Made by a program: the position numbers and the translations under genes. Of a stretch of DNA of 64,000 bases, positions 49,240 to 60,818 are shown one piece after another. This stretch comes from Henriciella mobilis. GTDB lineage: Bacteria; Pseudomonadota; Alphaproteobacteria; Caulobacterales; Hyphomonadaceae. Numbering within the stretch: position 1 is the stretch's first letter; each line of letters starts with the position of its first letter. Below the pieces are notes generated by a model, which was not told the DNA's origin, did no database searches, and was given only the letters and a program-made list of their open reading frames with translations. The DNA lies in NCBI RefSeq assembly GCF_003576315.1, contig NZ_QWFZ01000033.1, forward strand, positions 1 to 64,000, in the 5' to 3' direction.

Positions 49240-50238
49240 GTGAAACGGAAAAGAGAAAAGCCACACGTGTCAGCGCTACAGAGAAGTCTTTCCCGAATTC
49301 CCTGGGCCTACGTCACACGCAGGCTGCTGTTTGCGATTCCGACCCTCCTGGTCATTATCGCCGTCGCCTTCTTCATGATGCGCATGGCGCCGGGCGGGCC
49401 GTTCGATGGCGAGCGGAAGCTGAATGCGGCGACCGAAGCGGCGATCAAGGCCAAGTTCGGCCTCGACCAGGCGCTCTGGAAACAGTTCCTGGATTATCTG
49501 CTCGGCGTGCTGCAGGGCGATTTCGGCCCGTCGATGAAGACGCTTGGCAAGTCGGTCAACGATCTCATCGCCGATGGCCTGCCGGTCAGCCTCGCAATCG
49601 GCTCGCTGGCCATGCTGGTCGCCCTTGTCGTGGGCACGGCGCTCGGCGTCTTTGCCGGCCTGCGCCAGAACACGGCCGGTGACTATACCGTGATGGGGAT
49701 CGCCATGGCCGGGATTTCCATCCCGACCTTCGTGACGGGCCCGATCCTGATCCTTGTCTTTGCGCTCGGCGCCGGACTGTTCGCGGTTGGCGGGCTCGGC
49801 GAATACCCGAATATCGGGATGAACCCCTACAACATGACGCTACCGGTGCTGACGCTGGCCCTGCCGCAGATCGCGATCATTTCGCGCCTGATGCGGGCCT
49901 CCATCATTGAGACAATGCGCTCGCCGCATGTGCGCACCGCCCGCGCCAAAGGGCTGGCCGAGCGCAACGTCATCATGAAACACGTCCTACCGTCGGCTGT
50001 CCTGCCGCTCGTTTCCTATGCCGGCCCGGCCATGGCGCGGGTGATGACAGGCTCGCTCGTCATCGAGCGGATTTTCGGCCTGCCGGGCATGGGGTCTTAC
50101 TTTGTCGATGGTGCGATCAACCGCGACTACACACTCGTCATGGGCGCGCTGATCATCTATGCGACGCTGATCGTGCTGTTCAATCTTGTCGCCGATATCC
50201 TTTATGCGCTCCTGGACCCGAAGGTAAAATACGACTGA
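49240..50238 (+). CDS. ABC transporter permease, OppB/DppB type
   Basis: A 332-residue inner-membrane permease with six helices. The N-terminal YVTRRLLFAIPTLLVIIAVAF is the OppB signature, and the EAA-type coupling loop reads ARAKGLAERNVIMKHVLPSA. It would form a channel for oligopeptides or related solutes with its partner. The first codon is unsure: GTG at 49240 or GTG at 49267. Its stop shares one base with the next start (TGATG). No binding protein or ATPase lies near. Confidence 0.92.
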   Translation: MKRKREKPHVSALQRSLSRIPWAYVTRRLLFAIPTLLVIIAVAFFMMRMAPGGPFDGERKLNAATEAAIKAKFGLDQALWKQFLDYLLGVLQGDFGPSMKTLGKSVNDLIADGLPVSLAIGSLAMLVALVVGTALGVFAGLRQNTAGDYTVMGIAMAGISIPTFVTGPILILVFALGAGLFAVGGLGEYPNIGMNPYNMTLPVLTLALPQIAIISRLMRASIIETMRSPHVRTARAKGLAERNVIMKHVLPSAVLPLVSYAGPAMARVMTGSLVIERIFGLPGMGSYFVDGAINRDYTLVMGALIIYATLIVLFNLVADILYALLDPKVKYD

Positions 50239-51140
50239 TGGTCGATACGCTGGACATGACGGGCCGGAAGGAACCGGTCGAGCAGGCGCTCGCAGGCGGG
50301 CGTTCATTGTGGGACGATGCCCGCCGCCGGCTGTTCAACAATAAGGCAGCCGTTTTCTCGATGTGGGTGCTGGGCATCCTGATTTTCCTCGCAGTCTTCG
50401 GTCCGATGCTGTGGGTCCACGACTACAGCAAGATCTCTGCCGACACGGAGCTGGCGCCGACGATGCAGGACTGGCACTGGCTCGGCACCGACGAACAGGG
50501 CCGTGACCTCGTCGCGCGCAACCTGCTCGGCCTTCGCATTTCCATGGCCGTCGGTCTTGTCGCGACCATCGTGTCGCTGATTATCGGCGTCACCTGGGGC
50601 GCGATTGCCGGCTATGTCGGCGGGCGGGTCGACAATCTGATGATGCGGTTCGTGGACGTGCTCTACGCCATGCCCTTCATCTTCTTCGTGATCCTGCTGC
50701 TGACCGTTTTCGGACGGAACATCATCCTGATCTTCGCCGCGATCGGCGCAGTCGAGTGGCTGACCATGAGCCGGATCGTGCGGGGCCAGACGCTCGCCAT
50801 CAAGGGCAAGGAATTCATCGAGGCCGCCCGCGCCGCCGGCGTGCCGGGATCTGCCATCATCCGCCGCCACATCCTGCCCAATGTCGTCGGGCCGGTCGCC
50901 GTCTATGTGACGCTGACCATCCCGGTCGTGATCATGGCGGAGAGCTTCCTCTCCTTCCTCGGCCTCGGCGTGAACGAGCCGCTGACCTCGCTCGGCGTGC
51001 TGATCTCGAACGGCGCAAAGGAAATGCAGGACAAGCCCTGGCTGCTGATGGCGCCGGCCGTGCTGATGGCGGTGACGCTGCTCTGCCTCAACTTCATCGG
51101 CGACGGCCTGCGCGACGCGCTCGATCCGAAAGAGCGCTAG
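50238..51140 (+). CDS. ABC transporter permease, OppC/DppC type
   Basis: A 300-residue permease with six helices. The OppC N-terminal block LFNNKAAVFSMWVLGILIFLAVFGP, the HWLGTDEQGRDLVARNLLGLR segment and the coupling loop EAARAAGVPGSAIIRRHILPN are intact. It pairs with the OppB-type protein. The following gene, a thioesterase, is not a transporter part, so the substrate-binding protein and ATPases must be elsewhere. Confidence 0.93.
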   Translation: MVDTLDMTGRKEPVEQALAGGRSLWDDARRRLFNNKAAVFSMWVLGILIFLAVFGPMLWVHDYSKISADTELAPTMQDWHWLGTDEQGRDLVARNLLGLRISMAVGLVATIVSLIIGVTWGAIAGYVGGRVDNLMMRFVDVLYAMPFIFFVILLLTVFGRNIILIFAAIGAVEWLTMSRIVRGQTLAIKGKEFIEAARAAGVPGSAIIRRHILPNVVGPVAVYVTLTIPVVIMAESFLSFLGLGVNEPLTSLGVLISNGAKEMQDKPWLLMAPAVLMAVTLLCLNFIGDGLRDALDPKER

Positions 51141-51151
51141 AGCCAACCGCC

Positions 51152-52000
51152 ATGAGCAAGACCTCCTTCATCGACCTTCAGTCGACGCACAATCCCCATC
51201 GCTGGTACCTGAATGTGGAGCCGAGCATCTGTGTCGGCCCGCCGGGGCAGAAATTCCTGTTCGGCGGTGTTGGCCTCGCCTCGGCGATCACCGCGCTGGA
51301 GCAGACCACAGGCCGGCCGTGCATCTGGGCGACGGCGCAATACCTCTCCTTCGCCAATCCGCCCGACATTGTCGATCTCGACGTGCGCGCACCCATCGTC
51401 GGCAAGAACATCACCCAGGCGAGAGTCCTCGCGCATGTGAAGGACCGGGAAATCTTCACGGTGAATGCCGCGGTTGGCGAACGCGATTCCGACCAGTCGC
51501 ACCAGTGGCTCACCATGCCGGACGTGCCGCCTGCAGACGACTGTCCGCCCATGCCGCGCTTTGACGAGACAACGGAAGACCTGCATTCACGGCTCGACAT
51601 GCGCGTGGCGCAGGGGCGCTATTCGGCGCGCCGCGACGTCCAGGGCGGGCGCAGTGAGGATGGGCGTGTCGTGCTGTGGGGCCGGGCGAAGAATGGCGCG
51701 CCGGTCGATTCGGCGCTGCTTGCCATCATCAATGATTTCGTGCCCTCAGGCACCAGCCATGCGCTAGGCCTGCCAGCAGGCGCCAATTCCCTGGACAACA
51801 CGCTGCGTATTCGCCGGATCGTTGAAACCGAATGGGTCTGCTGCGACATCCAGATTGAAGGCGTTCATAATGGCTTCGTGCATGGGCGAATAGCGATGTT
51901 CGCCGATGACGGTACGCTGATGGCGACGGGCAGCCAGTCTGGCATCATCCGCATTTTCGATCCCGAAGCCTTCCGGCAGCGGTTCAAGAAGGACGCGTAG
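51152..52000 (+). CDS. Acyl-CoA thioesterase, double hot-dog (TesB-like)
   Basis: A 282-residue protein with two hot-dog halves. The first contains FGGVGLASAITALEQTTG and YLSFANPPDIVDLDVR; the second contains LAIINDFVPSGTSHAL, NSLDNTLRIRRIVETEWVCC and GRIAMFADDGTLMATGSQSG. This is the layout of TesB-type thioesterases, which free acids from acyl-CoA. The start at 51152 lies 11 bp after the permease stop codon, so it is likely in the same transcript. Confidence 0.85.
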   Translation: MSKTSFIDLQSTHNPHRWYLNVEPSICVGPPGQKFLFGGVGLASAITALEQTTGRPCIWATAQYLSFANPPDIVDLDVRAPIVGKNITQARVLAHVKDREIFTVNAAVGERDSDQSHQWLTMPDVPPADDCPPMPRFDETTEDLHSRLDMRVAQGRYSARRDVQGGRSEDGRVVLWGRAKNGAPVDSALLAIINDFVPSGTSHALGLPAGANSLDNTLRIRRIVETEWVCCDIQIEGVHNGFVHGRIAMFADDGTLMATGSQSGIIRIFDPEAFRQRFKKDA

Positions 52001-52011
52001 TTCGATTCCGA

Positions 52012-52500
52012 TCATTTCAGGGCTGCCTTTGCTGCTGCTGTGTTGACGGGACAGCTGGCAAGGCCGCTGTCGAGGGCGGGTGTTGCGCGCAGGGCCGACT
52101 GTGTGGCGGCTGCGGCGATGACTTCGGCATCGGAGAACATGACCGCCAGGCGCAGCAGGCTGTCGCGCGTGTCGCGGGTGTTTTCGGCCTCTTCCAGTGC
52201 GTCGAGCTGGACAACGCCTTCTTCGGCCATGCCGCGGAAGATGCAGCCAAGGTCGGACGGGCCGTCATTGCCGTCGATCCAGCGGCCAAGCTGTGTGGCG
52301 GCATAGGCGAAACGCTCGATTTCGGTCTGAAAGGCTGGTGAGATGTCGGCCTTGCCGGATGTGTCCAGCGTCTCGATCAGACTCGCTGTCTGCTCGCGCA
52401 GGTCGCCCGCTTTCAGGCCCCAGTCACCGGCCAGTTCAGGCGAGGCTGCCGCACTGAAGGGCAGGGCGGCTGCGGCGATGGCAAGCAGGATGCGTTTCAT
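52012..52500 (-). CDS. Exported helical protein of unknown function
   Basis: A 162-residue protein with a Sec signal peptide (MKRILLAIAAAALPFSAAASPE). The mature part is helical and acidic, with two cysteines (GCIF and ASCP) that may form a disulfide. No family recognised. It is convergent with the thioesterase gene and lies downstream of the glycosidase-like gene on the same strand. Confidence 0.75.
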   Translation of the reverse strand: MKRILLAIAAAALPFSAAASPELAGDWGLKAGDLREQTASLIETLDTSGKADISPAFQTEIERFAYAATQLGRWIDGNDGPSDLGCIFRGMAEEGVVQLDALEEAENTRDTRDSLLRLAVMFSDAEVIAAAATQSALRATPALDSGLASCPVNTAAAKAALK

Positions 52501-52543
52501 GACGGCACGGTCTCCGGAATTCTCCTGAGACGCGAAGCAAGCG

Positions 52544-53572
52544 CTATGCCGACTCGCCCATTGCGCGCATCACCGCCCGGCCCGCCGGTTTCGGTTCGCC
52601 GACTTCCCAGCGGTCCTCATCGTTCTTGTGGACGCGGTAGAGGCCCATCTTGCCTTCGAAGTCGTCCCAGTAGGGCTCGTCGAGAAGTTCATAGATGAAG
52701 GCGGCGTCCACGCGGTACTTTTCGCGCATGCTCCGGTAGTAGGCGATGCGCTCGGTCAGCATGCGCGCATTGTCTTCCTCGGTCTCGAACCCGCCGCCGC
52801 CAGCATTGAATTCGGTGATCCAGATCGGCTTGCCATAGCCGGCCAGGGTTTCGAGGAAGCTTTCGCGCACCTGCTCATAGTCATGCCAGATGGTGATGTC
52901 CCATTCGAGGCCATCCTCGACGAAGCGCTCGAAGGCGCCGAGATGGCCCCAGCCAGCAGTGCCGATGGCATATTTCGCATCCGGATCGCCTTCGCGGGCG
53001 CCGTCCAGCAGGCCGGCCAGGGAGGCGGAGACCTTTTCCCAGCGCGGTCCGTAATAGTCGAGCTTGTACATTCCGCCCGCCGGGCCCCACTCGCAGGGGT
53101 ATTGCGTGCCATCGTCGCGCATTTCGCAGGGCTTGATGATGGCGTGGTTCTCCAGCTCATTGCCCAGTTCCCAGATGGCGAACTGGCCGCGATAGCGTCG
53201 CGTGCGCCAGCGGGCGCGATTGTAGCTGTCGCGATAGAGCTGCTCCGGCGTCTTTTCCTTGAGCGGTCCGTCCGGATGGATGATCGGCAGCAGGGTCACG
53301 TCATGCTGGTCGGCAATGGTCTTCAGGCGCGCCATCTTCTCGTCATGCGAGCCGATGCGGTAATGCGTCATGCCAAGCTCGCGCACCAGCCGGATCTGCG
53401 TTTCCAGCGGGATGTCGGGATAGGCCTGGAAGGGGTGGCCGTTGACGCCCCAGATGAGGTCGCCCTCGCGCTTCAGCGGCGTCAGGGCACGGCGGCTGTC
53501 GCCGGCGCATGCGGCCAGCAGGCTTGCCGCGCCGAGCCCGGCCAGGAAGCTGCGTCTGTCTTGTCCTTGCAT
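52544..53572 (-). CDS. Glycoside-hydrolase-like (clan A) TIM-barrel lipoprotein
   Basis: A 342-residue exported protein. The start combines a twin-arginine-like RRSFLAGLGAASLLAACAG with a lipobox cysteine. The barrel shows the two acids of clan-A glycosidases: the acid/base in FAIWELGNELENH and the nucleophile in PIWITEFNAGGGG, with FIYELLDEPYWD further on. It probably cuts a beta-linked polysaccharide; family (GH5/GH39-like) and substrate are open. It reads away from the histidine leader region. Confidence 0.82.
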   Translation of the reverse strand: MQGQDRRSFLAGLGAASLLAACAGDSRRALTPLKREGDLIWGVNGHPFQAYPDIPLETQIRLVRELGMTHYRIGSHDEKMARLKTIADQHDVTLLPIIHPDGPLKEKTPEQLYRDSYNRARWRTRRYRGQFAIWELGNELENHAIIKPCEMRDDGTQYPCEWGPAGGMYKLDYYGPRWEKVSASLAGLLDGAREGDPDAKYAIGTAGWGHLGAFERFVEDGLEWDITIWHDYEQVRESFLETLAGYGKPIWITEFNAGGGGFETEEDNARMLTERIAYYRSMREKYRVDAAFIYELLDEPYWDDFEGKMGLYRVHKNDEDRWEVGEPKPAGRAVMRAMGESA

Positions 53573-53625
53573 CCCAGGGAGTATCAACCGTGCGGCCCGG
53601 CTTGGAAAGGCGATTCCCCTCAGAC

Positions 53626-53654
53626 TTGACTTTGGCCCGGCGCCTGCATATCCA
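53626..53654 (+). promoter_or_regulatory. Promoter of the histidine leader and hisS operon
   Basis: TTGACT (53626-53631) and TATCCA (53649-53654) are 17 bp apart. Transcription would begin near 53661, only about three bases before the leader-peptide ATG, so the leader mRNA would be practically leaderless. Confidence 0.6.
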
Positions 53655-53663
53655 CCGCCCACA

Positions 53664-53702
53664 ATGAACACGACGCTGCATCACCATCATCACCACGCGT
53701 GA
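53664..53702 (+). CDS. hisL: Histidine leader peptide (attenuator ORF)
   Basis: A 12-codon frame, MNTTLHHHHHHA, holds six consecutive histidine codons (three CAT, three CAC) right before Ala and the stop. It lies 180 bp before hisS, the first gene of a hisS-hisZ-hisG operon. Six His codons by chance are very unlikely here, and the position is exactly that of an attenuation leader. Ribosome stalling at these codons under histidyl-tRNA shortage would change folding of the RNA behind it. Confidence 0.9.
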   Translation: MNTTLHHHHHHA

Positions 53703-53755
53703 CGCGCCGCACGAGGCGCGAACCGGTCCGGCTGCGCCTCTCTCCAAGTGTTCAT
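53664..53755 (+). promoter_or_regulatory. Histidine attenuator with alternative RNA hairpins
   Basis: Hairpin A: CGCGCC (53703-53708) with GGCGCG (53715-53720), directly after the leader stop codon. Hairpin B: GAGGCGC (53713-53719) with GCGCCTC (53734-53740). They share 53715-53719 and exclude each other. GTGTTCAT (53748-53755) is also complementary to ATGAACAC at the leader start (53664-53671). No clean T run follows hairpin B, so the terminating step may need Rho or be translational. The 53573-53881 interval holds no other gene. Confidence 0.65.
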
Positions 53756-53881
53756 CTTCTACTCATTGAACCGCCAGAGGCAGACGCCGGATGTCCCGGT
53801 CTCGCGCCTTGTCCAGCGCGCCCGCTTCACACTGGCACCGGCTTCGTCTAAGCGGGGCCGGGCTGAACAGACAGGACGAGC

Positions 53882-55372
53882 ATGAGCAAGAAGAAACAAG
53901 ACCCGGATGCTCCCAAGAGCGGCAAGGACCTCGCCCGCAAGCCACGCGGCTTTCCCGACCGGCGCGAGGCGCTCATCCATGCCCAGGGCGAGATGATCGA
54001 CCGGGTCACAGCCGTCTATCGCCGCTGGGGCTTTGAGGCGCTGGACACCGGCGCATTCGAATATGCCGACGCGCTCGGCAAGTTCCTGCCCGATGATGAC
54101 CGCCCGAATGCCGGGGTCTTCTCGCTCCAGGACGATGACGAACAGTGGATCTCGCTGCGCTATGACCTGACGGCGCCGCTTGCGCGCTTTGCGGCCGAGA
54201 ACTGGCAGACGCTGCCCAAGCCCTTCCGCCGCTATGCCGCCGGGCCGGTCTGGCGCAATGAAAAGCCGGGGCCAGGCCGCTTCCGGGAGTTCCTGCAATG
54301 TGATGCCGACACGGTCGGTGCGGCTGGCGCGCATGCCGATGCGGAGATGGTCGCCATGGCCGCTGAGGCGATGCGGGCCGCCGGGGCAGGCGATGGCGAG
54401 TTCGCCGTCCGTGTGAACACGCGCCGCCTGCTGAATGCCGTGCTGGACGGCGTCGGCGCCAATTCGGATGCCGCGCGCCTGACAATCCTGCGCGCGCTCG
54501 ACAAGCTCGACCGGCTTGGCGAGGACGGCGTGAAGCTTCTCCTCGGGCCAGGCCGTGAGGATGAGAGCGGCGACTTCACCAAGGGCGCAGGCCTTGATGC
54601 AGGCAGCATCGACAAGGTCATGGCTTTCGCGCAGGCCGGGCGGGCGACGCGCGGCGATACGCTGGAAGCGCTGGGCCGGGCGGTCGGCACGGGCGAGGAA
54701 GCGTCGGCTGGGCTCGATGAACTCGCCGCCATTGCGCGCGGGCTGGAAGCCTTTGGCTGCCCGGACAGCGATGTCCTGTTCGACCCGTCCGTTGTGCGCG
54801 GACTGGAATACTATACCGGCCCTGTCTTCGAGGCCGAGCTCCTGAAAGAGACGGTCGACGAGGATGGCAATGTGGTGCGCATCGGCTCGGTCGGCGGGGG
54901 CGGGCGCTATGACGATCTCGTTGCGCGCTTCACCGGAGAAAAAGTGCCCGCGACCGGCTTCTCGGTCGGCATCTCGCGGCTGGCGACGGCCTTTGCGATT
55001 TCAGGTGACATTGAAGCCCTCAACGGCCCGGTCGTTGTGCTCAACCTCAACCGGGACGATCCGACCGAAGCGCTGAAACTAGCGACCGAACTTCGCGCCG
55101 CTGGTATCCGCGCTGAGGCCTATATGGGCTCGTCGGGCATGCGCCCGCAGATGAAGTATGCCGACCGGCGCGGCGCGCCCGTTGCGGTCATGGTTGGTGA
55201 GGACGAGATCGCCAAGGGCGTCGTCACCATCAAGGACCTGAAAGAAGGCGCCAAACAGGCCAAGGCGATCAAGTCCAACGAGGAATACCGCGAAGCCCGC
55301 CCCGGCCAGTTCGAAGCGCCCCGCGCCGAAATGGTCGCCCGCATTCGTGAGATTGTGGAGGCGGCGGAATGA
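53882..55372 (+). CDS. hisS: Histidyl-tRNA synthetase
   Basis: A 496-residue class-II aminoacyl-tRNA synthetase, the alphaproteobacterial long type. Motif 2 is VWRNEKPGPGRFREFLQCDAD, given here in part as RNEKPGPGRFREFLQ; the histidine-binding segment is GLEYYTGPVFEAELL; motif 3 is TGFSVGISRLATAF. The C-terminal anticodon-binding domain follows (VVVLNLNRDDPTEALKLATEL). It charges tRNA-His. Its stop overlaps the hisZ start by four bases. Control by the histidine leader would be direct feedback on charging. Confidence 0.96.
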   Translation: MSKKKQDPDAPKSGKDLARKPRGFPDRREALIHAQGEMIDRVTAVYRRWGFEALDTGAFEYADALGKFLPDDDRPNAGVFSLQDDDEQWISLRYDLTAPLARFAAENWQTLPKPFRRYAAGPVWRNEKPGPGRFREFLQCDADTVGAAGAHADAEMVAMAAEAMRAAGAGDGEFAVRVNTRRLLNAVLDGVGANSDAARLTILRALDKLDRLGEDGVKLLLGPGREDESGDFTKGAGLDAGSIDKVMAFAQAGRATRGDTLEALGRAVGTGEEASAGLDELAAIARGLEAFGCPDSDVLFDPSVVRGLEYYTGPVFEAELLKETVDEDGNVVRIGSVGGGGRYDDLVARFTGEKVPATGFSVGISRLATAFAISGDIEALNGPVVVLNLNRDDPTEALKLATELRAAGIRAEAYMGSSGMRPQMKYADRRGAPVAVMVGEDEIAKGVVTIKDLKEGAKQAKAIKSNEEYREARPGQFEAPRAEMVARIREIVEAAE

Positions 55373-56469
55373 GCACGCCTCAGGATATCTTCGCCCGCCT
55401 CGGTGGCGAGCTTTGTGACCCGCCCATCGTTATGCCGGCGAACCAGCCGCTGGAGCTCTCCGGCGAGGCGGTGCGCGCGCGCCTCTGCGTCTTCGTCGGC
55501 GAGAATGGCGAGGAATGTGCGCTCCGCCCTGACCTCACCCTGCCGCTCGCCATCGCGCAGGCTGAAGCCGGGGTCTCCGGCGAGACGGTGAAGCGCTACG
55601 CCGCGCGGGCTTTCCGCCTGCCCGCCGTGGCGAGCGATCCGGTCGAGTTCACCCAGGTCGGCTTTGAGCGCTATGGCGCACCGTCCACGGCAGAGACCGA
55701 CGCGGAAGCCTTCGCGCTGGTCTGCGAGGCGGCGGCGTCCTCTGGTGTCACCGAGAGCGAGACGCGCATGGGCGATCTTGCGGTCTTCCCGGCCTTTGTC
55801 GATGCGCTGGGCCTCGCGCCCGGCCTCGCCGAAGCGCTGAAGCGCGCCTTCCGCCAGGTGGGCGGCGTCTCTGCGCTGCTCAAGGCGAAGCCGAAACAGG
55901 CGGCGCATGGACTCGCTGCCCGCCTCAAGGGGGCGAGCGCTGCCGAAGCCAAGGCGATTGTCGCCGATATCTTCGCGCTGTCCGGCATCCAGCCGCAGGG
56001 CACTCGCAGCATCGACGAAATCGTCGAGGGCCTGCTCGCCCAGGCGGCCGACGCCGAACATGGCGGCGCGCCGGACCTTGCCCGCCAGACGCTGGAATCG
56101 GTCATGGCCGTCGACTGCGCGCCCGAACAGGCGGCAGACGCGCTGCTCGCCATTGCCAGACAAGCCGGTATTGACGGGGTCGAGCCGGTGCTGACCCGCC
56201 TCGATGCGCGGGTTGCCAGAATGCGCGAGGCAGCGCCCGCTTTCATGCAGGCCGCCCGCTTCGGCACGCCCTTCGGGCGGCGCTTCAACTATTATGACGG
56301 CTTTCTGTTCGAACTCTTCCGGCCGGGTGAATCCTCCGGACGGCGGCCGTTCGGGGCCGGTGGGCGCTATGACACGCTGCTGTCCAAGCTGTCGAACGGG
56401 GCGGTCGATGCCAGTGCGATTGGCGGTGTGGTCCGGCCCGACCGGCTGAATGGGGGAGACAGGCCATGA
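55369..56469 (+). CDS. hisZ: ATP phosphoribosyltransferase regulatory subunit HisZ
   Basis: A 366-residue HisRS-like protein without a tRNA-binding domain. It shows a degenerate synthetase core: ALRPDLTLPLAIAQAEA, YAARAFRLPAVASDPVEFTQVGFE (in part) and the late FNYYDGFLFELFRPGESSGRRPFGAGGRYD (in part). HisZ binds HisG and is needed for catalysis and histidine feedback in the short-HisG system. It overlaps hisS and hisG by four bases each. Confidence 0.93.
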   Translation: MSTPQDIFARLGGELCDPPIVMPANQPLELSGEAVRARLCVFVGENGEECALRPDLTLPLAIAQAEAGVSGETVKRYAARAFRLPAVASDPVEFTQVGFERYGAPSTAETDAEAFALVCEAAASSGVTESETRMGDLAVFPAFVDALGLAPGLAEALKRAFRQVGGVSALLKAKPKQAAHGLAARLKGASAAEAKAIVADIFALSGIQPQGTRSIDEIVEGLLAQAADAEHGGAPDLARQTLESVMAVDCAPEQAADALLAIARQAGIDGVEPVLTRLDARVARMREAAPAFMQAARFGTPFGRRFNYYDGFLFELFRPGESSGRRPFGAGGRYDTLLSKLSNGAVDASAIGGVVRPDRLNGGDRP

Positions 56470-57410
56470 CCCGGCTGACGATTGCAATCCCGTCCAAGGG
56501 ACGGCTCAAGGACAATGCCGAAGCCTGGTTCTCGAAAGCGGGCTTTTCACTGAAGCAGGCCGGCGGCGAACGCGGCTATACCGCTGAGCTGAAAGGCCTG
56601 CCCGAAGCAGACGTCCTGCTATTGTCGGCGCGTGAGATCGCGCAGGGGCTGATCGACGGCGCTTTTCATATCGGCGTGACGGGCGAGGACCTTCTGAACG
56701 ATCTCTCCGCCGACCTGCCTCGCGATGCGTCGGTGATCAAGCAGCTCGGCTTTGGCGGCGCAGACGTGGTCGTTGCGGTCCCGGCCGCATGGCTCGACGT
56801 GAACACGATGAGCGACCTTGAAGCGGCCGGCGCGCGGTTCCGCCAGCGTCATGGCCGGCGCATGAAGGTCGCGACCAAGTATCTGCGCCTGACGCGGAAT
56901 TTCTTCGCGGCAAAGTCGGTCGGCGAGTACCGGCTGGTGGAAAGCGCGGGCGCGACCGAGGCGGCGCCGAGTTCCGGACAGGCGGAAGTGATCGTCGACA
57001 TCACATCGAGCGGCGCGACGCTGAAGGCCAACTCGCTGAAGGTGCTCGACGATGGGGTGATCCTGAAAAGCCAGGCCGCGCTCACCGGATCGCTCAAGGC
57101 CGACTGGTCACAGGAAGCGCTCGGTGCACTGGAGAAACTTCTCTCATCTGTCGAGGCCGTGGAAACGGCGGATGCGACTCGCATGCTGGTCGCGGCGAAT
57201 CCCATTTCTGATAGCGTTATCAAGGCTGAAGGAATGACACCTGTTTCGGCAACTTCTGTTCTTTCGCCTTCCTATGCCGCGGTAAAAAATGCCCGGGCGA
57301 TCGCTGAATCCGGGGCCGGTCCAGTCACAATCTTGCGCACAGACTTCATTTTTGACCAGGAAACACCCTCATTTAAGAAGTTTGTTACCAATCTGAAATC
57401 GGTCGCTTGA
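56466..57410 (+). CDS. hisG: ATP phosphoribosyltransferase catalytic subunit HisG, extended
   Basis: The first enzyme of histidine synthesis (ATP + PRPP to phosphoribosyl-ATP). Motifs: AIPSKGRLKDNAEAWF, HIGVTGEDLLNDL, and the PRPP loop VIVDITSSGATLKANSLKVL. At 314 residues it is about 90 longer than the short HisG normally paired with HisZ. The extra C-terminal part (from about 225, AVETADATRMLVAAN onwards) does not look like the usual ACT-like regulatory domain. It ends the operon before a terminator. Confidence 0.93.
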   Translation: MTRLTIAIPSKGRLKDNAEAWFSKAGFSLKQAGGERGYTAELKGLPEADVLLLSAREIAQGLIDGAFHIGVTGEDLLNDLSADLPRDASVIKQLGFGGADVVVAVPAAWLDVNTMSDLEAAGARFRQRHGRRMKVATKYLRLTRNFFAAKSVGEYRLVESAGATEAAPSSGQAEVIVDITSSGATLKANSLKVLDDGVILKSQAALTGSLKADWSQEALGALEKLLSSVEAVETADATRMLVAANPISDSVIKAEGMTPVSATSVLSPSYAAVKNARAIAESGAGPVTILRTDFIFDQETPSFKKFVTNLKSVA

Positions 57411-57440
57411 CAATGTGACACAAAAAAGGCGATACAGGTT

Positions 57441-57469
57441 TTGCAAGTTTCTGGGAGGAAACGCTGCAA
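57441..57469 (+). ncRNA. Stem-loop with GGGAG loop in the hisG 3' region
   Basis: TTGCA-A-GTTTC, loop TGGGAG, GAAAC-GC-TGCAA. Together with the terminator at 57481 it makes a compact 3'-UTR structure that could be released as a small RNA. On the other strand the loop reads CTCCCA, an anti-Shine-Dalgarno-like sequence. Function unproven. Confidence 0.35.
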
Positions 57470-57480
57470 GAACTCTTACA

Positions 57481-57510
57481 GGCGCGGCTTGATAGCCGCG
57501 CCAATTTTTT
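57481..57510 (+). terminator. Rho-independent terminator of the his operon
   Basis: A perfect 8-bp stem, GGCGCGGC/GCCGCGCC, with a 6-nt loop is followed by AA and six T residues, 70 bp after the hisG stop codon. Confidence 0.93.
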
Positions 57511-57651
57511 ATCCGGTCTCCGCCTATTTCGCCGTTTTGACGCTGACGACTTGCGAGCCGGTTTTCCTGTTTCTCCAGCGCATATTGTGCGGCTTTGAGT
57601 GCCGACAAGGGCAAATCGACCGATTGCCCTGAATATAATGTCGCAGCCAAG

Positions 57652-57674
57652 AAAAAAGGGCCCTTTCGGGCCCC
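57652..57674 (-). terminator. Terminator of the small-RNA candidate
   Basis: GGGGCCC, GAAA tetraloop, GGGCCC, then six T residues, read on the minus strand. Part of the RNA described at 57652-57765. Confidence 0.9.
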
Positions 57675-57765
57675 AAGCATAGGAGTTTCTCTGGGAGTGG
57701 AGCCCGACTGGCGGCTCAGGGTCAGGGCGTCAGGGTATCGCCAGCCGGGCTCTCTTTTCTTATTG
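57652..57765 (-). ncRNA. Candidate structured small RNA
   Basis: On the minus strand a strong promoter is followed by a 14-bp stem (57739-57752 with 57700-57713, one G-U pair) whose 25-nt loop holds three CCCTGA copies. Next come a CU-rich single strand with ACTCCCAGAG and a terminator hairpin GGGGCCC-GAAA-GGGCCC with six T residues. No convincing protein frame exists: a longer minus frame crosses it but would start before the predicted transcript. I do not recognise a named family. The loops could pair with ribosome-binding sites. Confidence 0.7.
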
Positions 57766-57771
57766 TTAGTC

Positions 57772-57799
57772 AATATAGACTCTTATCGAAAAACGTCAA
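57772..57799 (-). promoter_or_regulatory. Promoter of the small-RNA candidate
   Basis: On the minus strand, TTGACG (57799-57794), a 16-bp spacer and TATATT (57777-57772). Both boxes match the sigma-70 consensus at five of six positions. Confidence 0.75.
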
Positions 57800-57816
57800 G
57801 GCCTTATCGAAAAACG
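57782..57816. repeat. 14-bp direct repeat over the small-RNA promoter
   Basis: CTTATCGAAAAACG occurs at 57782-57795 and 57803-57816, exactly identical and 21 bp apart, which puts both copies on the same DNA face. One copy covers the spacer and half of the -35 box, the other lies just upstream. This is the arrangement of a regulator-binding site. Confidence 0.8.
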
Positions 57817-58064
57817 ATTCTTACAAATGCGTTAGCTGTTGCCACTGCAATCGTCAGGCAGGGCAGATAGGCAGTCCGGGAGCCGCTGGCTAGAGGCGGG
57901 ATGTCATGGCGCCCATGCATAATTGCATTTGCAACCAGTTGTGGCATTTCTTCCAGACCGACAGCATTCCCTGTCCGCGGTATAGGGGCCTCGTGTTGAC
58001 TTTGGCACCGGCCCCAGCCATGCGGATGGCTTCGCTGGCAAGATAAACATTGGAGTTTCAAGAC

Positions 58065-59255
58065 ATGTCAGATCCGCGCGCCCACATCATGCCCGTCTAC
58101 GCACCGCCGTCAGAAGTGTTTGTGCGAGGCGAGGGCGTGCGCCTCTATACCGAAGAGGGCGCCGAGTATCTCGACTTCATCGCCGGCATCGCCGTCAATG
58201 CGCTCGGCCATTCGCACCCGAAACTGGTTGAGGCGCTCACCGAGCAGGGCAAGAAGCTCTGGCACCTGTCGAACATGTTCCGCGTGCCGGCTGGCGAGCA
58301 ACTGGCCGACAAGATCTGTGCCCGCACCTTCGCCGACCGGGTCTTCTTCACCAACTCCGGCACCGAGGCGGTCGAGTGCGCACTCAAGGCGGCGCGCAAG
58401 TATCACTGGTCCAAGGGCGATGAGGAGCGCATCGAATTCGTCACCTTCACGGGCGCCTTCCATGGCCGCTCACTCGGCGCGATCAATGCTGGCGGCAATC
58501 CGAAATACCTGGAAGGCTTCGGCCCGCCAATCGAAGGCTTCACCCAGATCGAGTGGGGCGACCACGACGCGCTTGATGCGGCCGTGACCGACAAGACGGC
58601 GGCCGTCTTCGTCGAGCCAGTACAGGGCGAGGGCGGCGTGCGCGCCATGCCGGAAGAATGCCTGACCGGTCTGCGCAAGCTCTGTGACGAGCGCGGCGCA
58701 CTGCTCATCTATGACGAGATCCAGTGCGGCATGGGCCGGACCGGGCAGCTCTTCGCCTTCGAGTGGGCCGAGAATGCCCAGCCGGACATCATGTGCCTCG
58801 CCAAGGGTATCGGCGGTGGCTTCCCGCTCGGCGCCTGCCTGATGACTGAGGAGGTTGGCCTGCCGATGCAGCCGGGCTCGCACGGGTCGACCTATGGCGG
58901 CAACCCGCTCGCCATGGCCGTCGGCAATGCGGTCTGGGACATTATCTCTGACGAGGCCTTCCTGGCTGAGGTACGCCGCGTTTCCGGCACGGTTGCGCAG
59001 GGGCTGAAGAGCCTAGCCGACAGCCACCCCGACAAGGTCGACTCTGTAACCGGCAAGGGCCTGCTGACCGGCCTGAAGCTCAAGGCCGCGCCGAAACCGG
59101 TCCAGAATGCCTGCCGCGAGAAGAACCTGCTCGTCGGTGTCGCGGGCGCCAACGTCTTGCGCCTCGCACCGCCACTGATCATCTCCGATGAAGATGTGCG
59201 CGAAGCCGTCGGCGTCATCGACCAGGCGCTCTCCGATTGGGAGATGGAGGGGTAG
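58065..59255 (+). CDS. argD: Acetylornithine/succinyldiaminopimelate aminotransferase family (ArgD-like)
   Basis: A 396-residue class-III PLP aminotransferase. The PLP pocket is seen in FFTNSGTEAVECALKAARKY, FHGRSLGAINAGGNP, LLIYDEIQCGMGRTG and the Schiff-base lysine in CLAKGIGGGFPLGA. Length and motifs suit ArgD. It would make N-acetylornithine for arginine synthesis and may also serve lysine synthesis. The ATG at 58065 has GGAG nine bases before it. The 5' region carries TTGACT (57996-58001) and a small hairpin AGCCAT-GCGG-ATGGCT (58016-58031). Confidence 0.92.
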   Translation: MSDPRAHIMPVYAPPSEVFVRGEGVRLYTEEGAEYLDFIAGIAVNALGHSHPKLVEALTEQGKKLWHLSNMFRVPAGEQLADKICARTFADRVFFTNSGTEAVECALKAARKYHWSKGDEERIEFVTFTGAFHGRSLGAINAGGNPKYLEGFGPPIEGFTQIEWGDHDALDAAVTDKTAAVFVEPVQGEGGVRAMPEECLTGLRKLCDERGALLIYDEIQCGMGRTGQLFAFEWAENAQPDIMCLAKGIGGGFPLGACLMTEEVGLPMQPGSHGSTYGGNPLAMAVGNAVWDIISDEAFLAEVRRVSGTVAQGLKSLADSHPDKVDSVTGKGLLTGLKLKAAPKPVQNACREKNLLVGVAGANVLRLAPPLIISDEDVREAVGVIDQALSDWEMEG

Positions 59256-59260
59256 GCCGA

Positions 59261-59491
59261 GTGCTCGCTCTTCGATTGCTACTCTACGTAGTAAGCTGCT
59301 TTGCTATTGGAACGTCGGCTGGCATTGCTGTTTACTGGATCAACGTATGTCAGAGCGTTTGCATATCATCTGAGTCGTTGTTTTTTGGTGTGGTGTTAGG
59401 CGGTGCTTTTTCCTTCATAGGGTCGACTTATGTCGGATGGGGCCTGATGACGAAGGCGAGGAAACAGCCGAAAAAAAGCCGGCACCCCTGA
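59261..59491 (+). CDS. Small two-helix membrane protein downstream of argD
   Basis: A 76-residue protein starting at GTG (59261), five bases after the argD stop codon, with GGAGGGG upstream. It has two membrane helices (LLLYVVSCFAIGTSAGIAVYW and FFGVVLGGAFSFIGSTYVGW), cysteines in the loop, and a basic tail. The coding bases are less G+C-rich than those of argD. Family unknown; possibly recently acquired. Confidence 0.55.
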   Translation: MLALRLLLYVVSCFAIGTSAGIAVYWINVCQSVCISSESLFFGVVLGGAFSFIGSTYVGWGLMTKARKQPKKSRHP

Positions 59492-59506
59492 CAAGGTGCC
59501 GGCTTT
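59471..59506 (-). terminator. Bidirectional terminator between argD region and acyl-CoA dehydrogenase
   Basis: A perfect 12-bp stem AAAGCCGGCACC/GGTGCCGGCTTT with an 8-nt loop. On the minus strand it runs into seven T residues and ends the dehydrogenase gene; on the plus strand only TTTCTG follows. Confidence 0.9.
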
Positions 59507-59534
59507 CTGTCGATGAAGGGTTTGGAGGGAGGTC

Positions 59535-60818
59535 CTAGCCCTTCGTCGCTTTCTTCATGCCCATGCGGCCAAGCTCGTTGCGGCCGACCACCATGTGGTG
59601 AACCTCGTCCGGGCCGTCCGCGAGGCGCAGCGTGCGCTGCTGGGTGTACATGTCGGCGAGCGGCGTCCATTGCGAGACACCTGTTGCACCATGCATCTGG
59701 ATCGCATCGTCGATGATCTTGCAGACGCGCTCCGGCACCATGGCTTTCACCATCGAGATCCAGACGCGCGCTTCCTTGTTGCCGAGCACGTCCATCGCCT
59801 TGGCGGCTTTCAGCACCATCAGCTTCATCGCCTCAAGCTCGATACGGGCCCGCGAGATTTTCTCGAGGTTGCCGCCGAGCCGGGCGAGCGGCTGGCCGAA
59901 CGCATCGCGCGACATGCCGCGGTCGATCATCAGGTCGAGGGCCTTTTCGCCAGCGCCGATGGAGCGCATGCAGTGGTGGATGCGGCCCGGGCCGAGGCGG
60001 AGCTGGGAAATCTCGAAGCCGCGGCCAACGCCGAGCAGGATGTTCTCCTCAGGCACTTTCACATCCGTGAAGCGGATATGCATGTGGCCGTGCGGGGCGT
60101 CATCCTTGCCGAAGACCTGCATGCCTTCAAGGACTTCCACGCCGGGCGTGTCGATCGGGACGAGGATCTGCGACTGTTGCTGGTGGGACGGGCCATCCGG
60201 GTCCGTCTGCACCATCACGATCATGATCTTGCAGCGCGGGTCACCGGCACCCGAGGCGTAGTATTTCTCACCGTTGATGACCCACTGGCCATCCTTCAGG
60301 ACAGCCTGGGTGCGGACATTGCGTGCGTCGGAGCAGGCAGTGCCGGGTTCGGTCATCGCGAAGGCGGAGCGGATCTCGCCGTTGAGCAGCGGCTTCAGCC
60401 ACTTCTCTTTCTGCTCCGGTGTGCCGACGCGTTCCAGCACTTCCATGTTGCCGGTGTCGGGCGCCGAGCAGTTCAGGCATTCCGAGGCGAGCCGGTTCTT
60501 GCCGAGCTCGGCAGCGATGTAGGCGTAGTCCAGGTTGGACAGGCCTTCACCAGTCTCCGCGTTTGGCAGGAAGAAGTTCCAGAGGCCTTGTTCCTTGGCC
60601 TTGTTCTTGACCTCTTCAAGCATTTCCAGCTGGCCGTCGACATAGGACCAGCGGTCCTTGCGGCCCTCGCCGAGCTCGTGGAACTTGATGCTCATCGGCT
60701 CGACTTCCTCGGCAATGAACTTCTTGACGTGCTCATAGAGCGGCACGGCTTCTTCCGACATGCGCAGGTCATTCAGCGGATCGCGCACATCCATCTTTTC
60801 AAGGCTTCCGGTATCCAT
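59535..60818 (-). CDS. Acyl-CoA dehydrogenase
   Basis: A 427-residue flavoprotein of the ACAD10/11-like branch. The FAD/substrate motifs are SAFAMTEPGTACSDARN, VINGEKYYASGAGD and QMHGATGVSQWTPLADMYTQ. It carries out the first, alpha-beta desaturation step of acyl-CoA breakdown and passes electrons to ETF. GGAGGAG precedes the ATG. It is divergent from a MarR gene across a short palindrome, so it is probably the repressed target. Confidence 0.94.
   Translation of the reverse strand: MDTGSLEKMDVRDPLNDLRMSEEAVPLYEHVKKFIAEEVEPMSIKFHELGEGRKDRWSYVDGQLEMLEEVKNKAKEQGLWNFFLPNAETGEGLSNLDYAYIAAELGKNRLASECLNCSAPDTGNMEVLERVGTPEQKEKWLKPLLNGEIRSAFAMTEPGTACSDARNVRTQAVLKDGQWVINGEKYYASGAGDPRCKIMIVMVQTDPDGPSHQQQSQILVPIDTPGVEVLEGMQVFGKDDAPHGHMHIRFTDVKVPEENILLGVGRGFEISQLRLGPGRIHHCMRSIGAGEKALDLMIDRGMSRDAFGQPLARLGGNLEKISRARIELEAMKLMVLKAAKAMDVLGNKEARVWISMVKAMVPERVCKIIDDAIQMHGATGVSQWTPLADMYTQQRTLRLADGPDEVHHMVVGRNELGRMGMKKATKG

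Follow-up and report, generated by a model that had tools for sequence, protein, structure and literature searches.

Organization of the hisS-hisZ-hisG locus and its leader

The window, meaning the whole stretch of 64,000 nucleotides that was analysed, carries hisS, hisZ and hisG on the forward strand, and these genes are preceded by a promoter, a short His-rich open reading frame and a second promoter-like sequence. The features are as follows.

53626..53654, forward: promoter P1, TTGACT (53626-53631), 17-nt spacer and TATCCA (53649-53654), its geometry kept in all 36 carriers
53664..53702, forward: leader peptide ORF, MNTTLHHHHHHA*, with at least three His codons in 35 of the 36 carriers and two in L030
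53679..53696, forward: six consecutive His codons
53826..53854, forward: promoter-like P2, TTCACA, 17-nt spacer and TAAGCG, between the putative attenuator and hisS
53882..55372, forward: hisS, histidine--tRNA ligase (TIGR00442, 362 bits against a cut-off of 287)
55369..56469, forward: hisZ, ATP phosphoribosyltransferase regulatory subunit (the best NCBIfam matches are HisZ models, under their cut-offs)
56466..57410, forward: hisG, ATP phosphoribosyltransferase (TIGR00070, 161 bits against a cut-off of 76)
57481..57502, forward: ordinary intrinsic terminator 3' of hisG, from the terminator scan

The start of hisZ overlaps the stop of hisS, and the start of hisG overlaps the stop of hisZ. The terminator at the end of the operon (GGCGCGGC..GCCGCGCC AATTTTTTAT) has a T6 run. 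The hisS of the window shows 93-94% identity to those of H. algicola, H. aquimarina, H. marina and H. pelagia, and by this kinship in sequence the source genome is a Henriciella.

The hisS gene was found in 99 of 101 genomes, and 90 upstream regions (L001-L090) were examined. A leader or leader RNA was present in 36 of the 90, namely in all 28 regions taken from g1 (Henriciella in the sense of GTDB), all six taken from g5 (Hyphomonas or Hyphomonas-type) and two from g8 (UBA5336). These 36 are called the carriers.

An earlier sequence-only reading of this DNA had placed a six-histidine leader ORF about 180 bp before hisS. This ORF reads ATGAACACGACGCTG(CAY)6GCGTGA and encodes twelve residues, six of them His, and its stop lies 179 nt from the hisS ATG at 53882. 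The CAY x6 run occurs once in the whole 3,973,091-base (3.97 Mb) genome, while the reversed pattern, used as a control, does not occur. The same reading had proposed a promoter whose predicted start is about three bases from the leader ATG, and this was borne out by the geometry: counting 7 nt past the -10 element gives 53661, three nt before the ATG. P1 was not listed by a generic sigma-70 scan of 50000-60000, because the scan demands a T at the sixth -10 position; it is called a promoter since the same arrangement (TTGAC, 17 nt and TA, lying 6-10 nt 5' of the leader ATG) is found in 36 of 36 aligned carriers. The -10 spacing predicts a 5' UTR of 0-4 nt in all of them, 3 nt in the window, and no Shine-Dalgarno-like string was seen before the leader ATG in any of the 36. 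This geometry suggests that the P1 RNA is near-leaderless, with its 5' end no more than about 4 nt away from the leader AUG.

A divergent gene (52544-53572, reverse strand), which has no NCBIfam match, shares the intergenic region with P1, and its longest ORF reaches 53671, antisense over P1 and the first leader codons.

The His codons of the leader peptide are kept while residues 2-5 vary. Their conservation in relatives, on which the sequence-only reading had staked itself, held in the main and gave way in some carriers: decayed or variant leaders read HHLHPKT (HHLHPK), HHHCA, HPHCA, MRTSAHHHCA and MKTILHHLHPKT, the His codons being decayed in L029 and L030. Other g1 leaders read HHHHQQ.

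Pairing segments of the leader RNA

The leader RNA contains five segments that take part in the pairings discussed below.

53664..53671, forward: segment S (ATGAACAC), the leader start, pairs with E
53703..53708, forward: segment A (CGCGCC), immediately 3' of the leader stop, pairs with B
53713..53720, forward: segment B (GAGGCGCG), pairs with A or C
53733..53740, forward: segment C (TGCGCCTC), pairs with B
53748..53755, forward: segment E (GTGTTCAT), the complement of S

The two mutually exclusive hairpins that had been proposed after the leader share segment B, which pairs either through 53715-53720 with A or through 53713-53720 with C, and both were kept in the alignment. In 35 distinct sequences, 99.5% of the A:B cells and 98.2% of the B:C cells were paired, against 17-65% and 33-76% in slid controls. 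Their covariation scores were reached by 41 and 11 of 500 shuffles, respectively, and in each hairpin one pair was changed on both sides. The support for A:B and B:C is mostly conservation, with little compensation.

A third segment complementary to the leader start had also been described. Segment E complements 53664-53671 in 8 of 8 positions, a match that never arose when the 28 nt following C in the window were letter-shuffled 1000 times, and it covaries with S: ATGAACAC/GTGTTCAT stands against ATGAAAAC/GTTTTCAT, by which codon 2 of the leader changes from Asn to Lys. At least six unbroken S:E pairs, with G-U counted as a pair, were found in 31 of the 36 carriers, each score being reached in less than 5% of letter shuffles; in the other five (L026, L027, L029, L030 and L032) the complement was no better than in shuffles, and L032 has GAGCA opposite TGCTC. 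When the best 8-mer of each sequence was taken, 33 of 36 had at least 6 of 8 pairs. Dealing E anew among the 15 distinct S/E combinations gave a mean of 88.2 of 120 pairs against 99 observed, with none of 5000 shuffles as high, in a test that takes no account of kinship and that leans towards S:E because each E is the best 8-mer for its own S. At position 6, C-G is replaced by A-U; this main S:E change runs along a clade and could reflect a single event.

Of 200 shuffles of the leader at 53662-53881, 199 folded less well than the native sequence (z -3.0). The overall best fold of the window leader joins B to a distant segment F and not to C. From the 14 closest Henriciella, RNAalifold produced S:E and B:C unprompted; from 20 Hyphomonas-type sequences it produced A:B but no S:E. 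The B:F pairing (F at about 53796-53810) and a pairing of C with AGAGGC (53776-53781) are candidates spotted by eye in the window only, the latter being broken, also by eye, in several sequences of the RNAalifold sets. A further candidate, E:G, in which E would pair with GAAC farther downstream, seemed conserved and was dropped, as single sequences were no better than shuffled letters.

The absence of a normal T-run terminator had been pointed out from the window, and it extends to the alignment: none was seen after C in 36 sequences, which have 2-5 T in the 8 nt that follow. An intrinsic terminator with a U-run as the OFF structure is thus absent, and the leader was not listed by the terminator scan. 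In the two main Henriciella clades (25 sequences), the 60 nt after segment C have a cytosine fraction of 0.15-0.40 and a guanine fraction of 0.13-0.27, while the two are about equal in most of the six Hyphomonas. This composition, a comparison set against no control, would be in keeping with Rho in those two clades. A cmscan of 53550-53950 against Rfam up to E 5 gave one miRNA match only (E 2.2), with no match to the His_leader covariance model or to the T-box riboswitch model.

Ribosome position and the proposed control of the operon

For constrained folding of 33 of the 36 carriers, from four groups, the assumed ribosome footprint reached 14 nt upstream and 15 nt downstream of the first P-site base and was held unpaired. 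At the first His codon the ribosome masks S but not A; at the stop it masks A, and S becomes available. In the four groups, the stop position gave 0.00 for A:B and 0.71-1.00 for B:C, and the position at the first His codon gave 0.00 for S:E and 0.13-0.98 for A:B. For the 14 closest Henriciella, the means at the first His codon were 0.13 for A:B, 0.82 for B:C and 0.00 for S:E, and at the stop 0.00, 0.96 and 0.78. In the other groups, A:B at the first His codon was 0.24 in the MAG clade, 0.48 in Hyphomonas and 0.98 in UBA5336, and S:E at the stop was 0.49, 0.42 and 0.00, respectively. In the sequence of the window itself, placing the ribosome at the first His codon still left B:C at 0.99. As B:C wins there at equilibrium, A:B must win kinetically, if at all, through the order of folding during transcription. 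Within this folding model, S:E and the accessibility of A depend on where the ribosome stands, and the exclusive structures appear to be placed so that ribosome position decides between them, weakly so for A:B at equilibrium in the window sequence.

Taken together, we consider it probable that the hisS-hisZ-hisG transcript from P1 begins with a histidine-responsive, ribosome-mediated attenuator. When His-tRNA is plentiful, the ribosome would reach the stop, cover A and have left S, and B:C together with S:E would form one compact closed fold that hides the leader start, so that few polymerases would proceed. When His-tRNA is scarce, the ribosome would wait at the first His codons, covering S and leaving A free; A:B could then form, E would be free and transcription would proceed into hisS-hisZ-hisG. 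The closed fold of B:C with S:E would thus be the OFF state, and the end of transcription may be Rho-dependent or come about through a weak U-tract. P2, whose form with a 17-nt spacer is found in 31 of 36 carriers as a pattern picked by eye from the alignment, may give a basal supply of hisS, the essential synthetase. Since it lies downstream of the attenuator, it suggests that the attenuator governs only part of the hisS transcripts, and it could make the effect of the attenuator small. The attenuator proposed for hisS-hisZ-hisG by the sequence-only reading stands as regards an attenuator-like leader, near-leaderless by its geometry and well upheld by comparison, and its control may be only partial.

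The strongest competing reading, which we regard as rather unlikely, is classic intrinsic attenuation, in which B:C would terminate weakly through a degenerate U-tract (UCUCUCC...), A:B would be the antiterminator and S:E a mere aid. B:C is indeed strong and kept, and some relatives have 5 T in 8, but most of the 36 carriers have 2-4 T in the 8 nt after C, against the T6 run in the operon's own terminator. It is less likely still that the leader ORF or its RNA acts mainly as a small RNA or a trans-acting peptide, as has been reported for rnTrpL/peTrpL of Sinorhizobium meliloti, and that the operon is run by P2. Such a role would fit the conservation of P2, the S:E closed fold, which could make a stable small RNA, and the match of the Caulobacter vibrioides hisS leader region to the Rfam sRNA family CC3513 on the opposite strand; it fits poorly with an element that stands before hisS in the 36 carriers and in named loci, and with His codons that are kept while the neighbouring residues vary. 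The decayed leaders of some relatives, such as MRTSAHHHCA and MKTILHHLHPKT, might recall a chance ORF or a relic, with the conserved hairpins serving another role, for example as a protein-bound operator. This we hold to be very improbable, given the single CAY x6 run in the genome, the conservation over three genera and the S:E change that accompanies the N2K substitution in the leader.

Leader peptides are known in front of tRNA-synthetase genes, as in pheST of E. coli, and the enterobacterial his operon leader (hisL, Rfam His_leader) is an attenuator of a hisG-containing operon. Like hisL, the Henriciella leader combines a short ORF containing consecutive His codons with exclusive RNA hairpins 5' of a hisG-containing operon. 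It differs in having no Rfam match up to E 5, in the three overlapping segments after the stop, in having hisS as the first gene, and in lacking a T-run terminator and a Shine-Dalgarno-like string. The element is not a new principle. By comparison of sequences it is a real, conserved attenuator-like element, unusual in its putative start-closing helix and its missing terminator.

In S. meliloti, the trpL leader RNA (rnTrpL) starts with the ATG of the leader ORF and has a transcription terminator (PMC7298713). Both are alphaproteobacterial amino-acid leaders, and in our case a start of the RNA at or close to the leader ATG is predicted; the S. meliloti leader differs in its Trp codons, in preceding trpE(G) and in its terminator, and sequestration of the start by a downstream segment is not mentioned in the passages considered (PMC7298713). 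A leader peptide with His codons was predicted before a hisS paralogue (hisS*) and hisZ in Bacillus, a Firmicutes case found by terminator search, and the same source saw no similarity between Firmicute and proteobacterial leaders (PMC2965389). Within the Caulobacterales, Caulobacter crescentus has a leader CDS 5' of a tRNA-synthetase gene, trpS, which concerns tryptophan and for which no mechanism is described in the passages considered (PMC4117421). Our literature searches, with partial coverage, found no report of a hisS leader in Alphaproteobacteria, and absence from print is not claimed. If the proposed control is true, a single switch read by the ribosome would control both the tRNA-His synthetase and the first enzyme of histidine synthesis, in a group that has cultured members, and the locus would offer a concrete system for attenuation without a T-run on a leaderless or near-leaderless RNA.

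Distribution, related leaders and the tRNA-Gln variant

The RNA model R1, built from the carriers, gave one strong match each in 62 of 398 genomes of the order (E 3e-13 or better), of which 27 were Henriciella g1, 33 Hyphomonas-type g5 and two the neighbouring UBA5336 g8. In the class, it matched two of 385 genomes at E 1e-6, both from the same family as the window. R1 lies directly upstream of hisS in 36 of 80 named hisS loci. No match was obtained in at least four g5 genomes of the 398-genome search, nor before hisS in the named loci L144, L145, L159, L160, L163, L167 and L173 and the Ponticaulis loci L168, L171 and L177, so the element can be lost or is absent. Four second-tier matches were read by eye; those in G123, G111 and G354 lie inside long open frames, and the G237 match sits at the end of a His-rich frame, the 1.7 kb retrieved around it containing no his gene.

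An unlike His-rich ORF, for example MTRTPHHHGHHHHPTSPRGIGRVRTL, precedes hisS in 23 of the 33 loci L175-L207, which are mostly Caulobacteraceae. As in the window, this ORF lies 5' of hisS, in most Caulobacteraceae cases close behind a TATA-like -10 (by eye), and is accompanied by overlapping pairings. The peptide differs, having 24-26 aa (such as MTRTPHHHGHHHHP..), and so does the RNA, in which GCGGAYGG either forms part of a GAGCCCC..GGGGCTC hairpin or is paired to CCRTCCG. This GCGGAYGG can pair over at least 6 bases with a downstream CCRTCCG-like stretch in 20 of 22 loci examined, with Y and R changing together, and a stricter pattern picked out 15 of 22. The Caulobacteraceae leader regions include L192:1223-1392 (reverse strand); in C. 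vibrioides the leader overlaps the Rfam sRNA CC3513, whose model is on the opposite strand. No His leader was found before hisS in the three Ponticaulis loci. These unlike leaders indicate that a His leader of hisS exists in at least two families of Caulobacterales, with two unlike RNAs.

ARAGORN identified a tRNA-Gln(UUG) between the attenuator and P2 in seven relatives.

L016:1338-1411 and L019:1338-1411: tRNA-Gln(UUG), Henriciella MAG clade
L017:3030-3103, L020:3029-3102 and L021:3028-3101, all reverse strand: tRNA-Gln(UUG), Henriciella MAG clade
L026:3031-3104 and L027:3031-3104, both reverse strand: tRNA-Gln(UUG), UBA5336

This extra tRNA was found in these seven only among 26 genomes searched, once each, and an ordinary tRNA-Gln is present elsewhere in 25 of the 26. 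Among the 398 genomes of the order, the same seven were found with one weaker match, in G271, which was discounted as it sits in a tRNA array and not at hisS. The extra tRNA encodes CCA, and four anticodon-stem pairs are changed on both sides. Among phages, the tRNA-Gln of Pseudomonas phage EM, which is present in two records, matches it best, at 81.5% over 54 of 74 nt, and no match was found among plasmids. By eye, it is decaying in L021 and L027, and remnants are seen in L022-L025.

Gln codons occur in all seven leaders with an intact tRNA against two of 29 without it (Fisher p 4e-6, kinship ignored), and one of these two, L023, has a remnant; the remnant carriers L022, L024 and L025 have no Gln codon in the leader. 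The placement of the Gln codons differs, being HHHHQQ and HHHHQH in some leaders and QQHHHHQH and QQHHHHH in others. In a hisS tree of 44 rows, the intact tRNA falls in two places, which means few independent events, and the link between tRNA and Gln codons is suggestive. A further, composite reading seems to us possible and rather doubtful: in the MAG clade and UBA5336 the attenuator would be a dual His/Gln sensor driving a captured phage-type tRNA-Gln(UUG), that is, a tRNA gene attenuated by its own amino acid, and in the lineage of the window a near-leaderless start codon would be opened and closed by the progress of the ribosome through the His codons. With the tRNA-Gln variant, nature would have carried out an experiment in switching the codon that is read by a leader. 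L018 was dropped from the tree, its frame being broken: this hisS, from a MAG (G006:C147:5444-6898), has an in-frame TAG.
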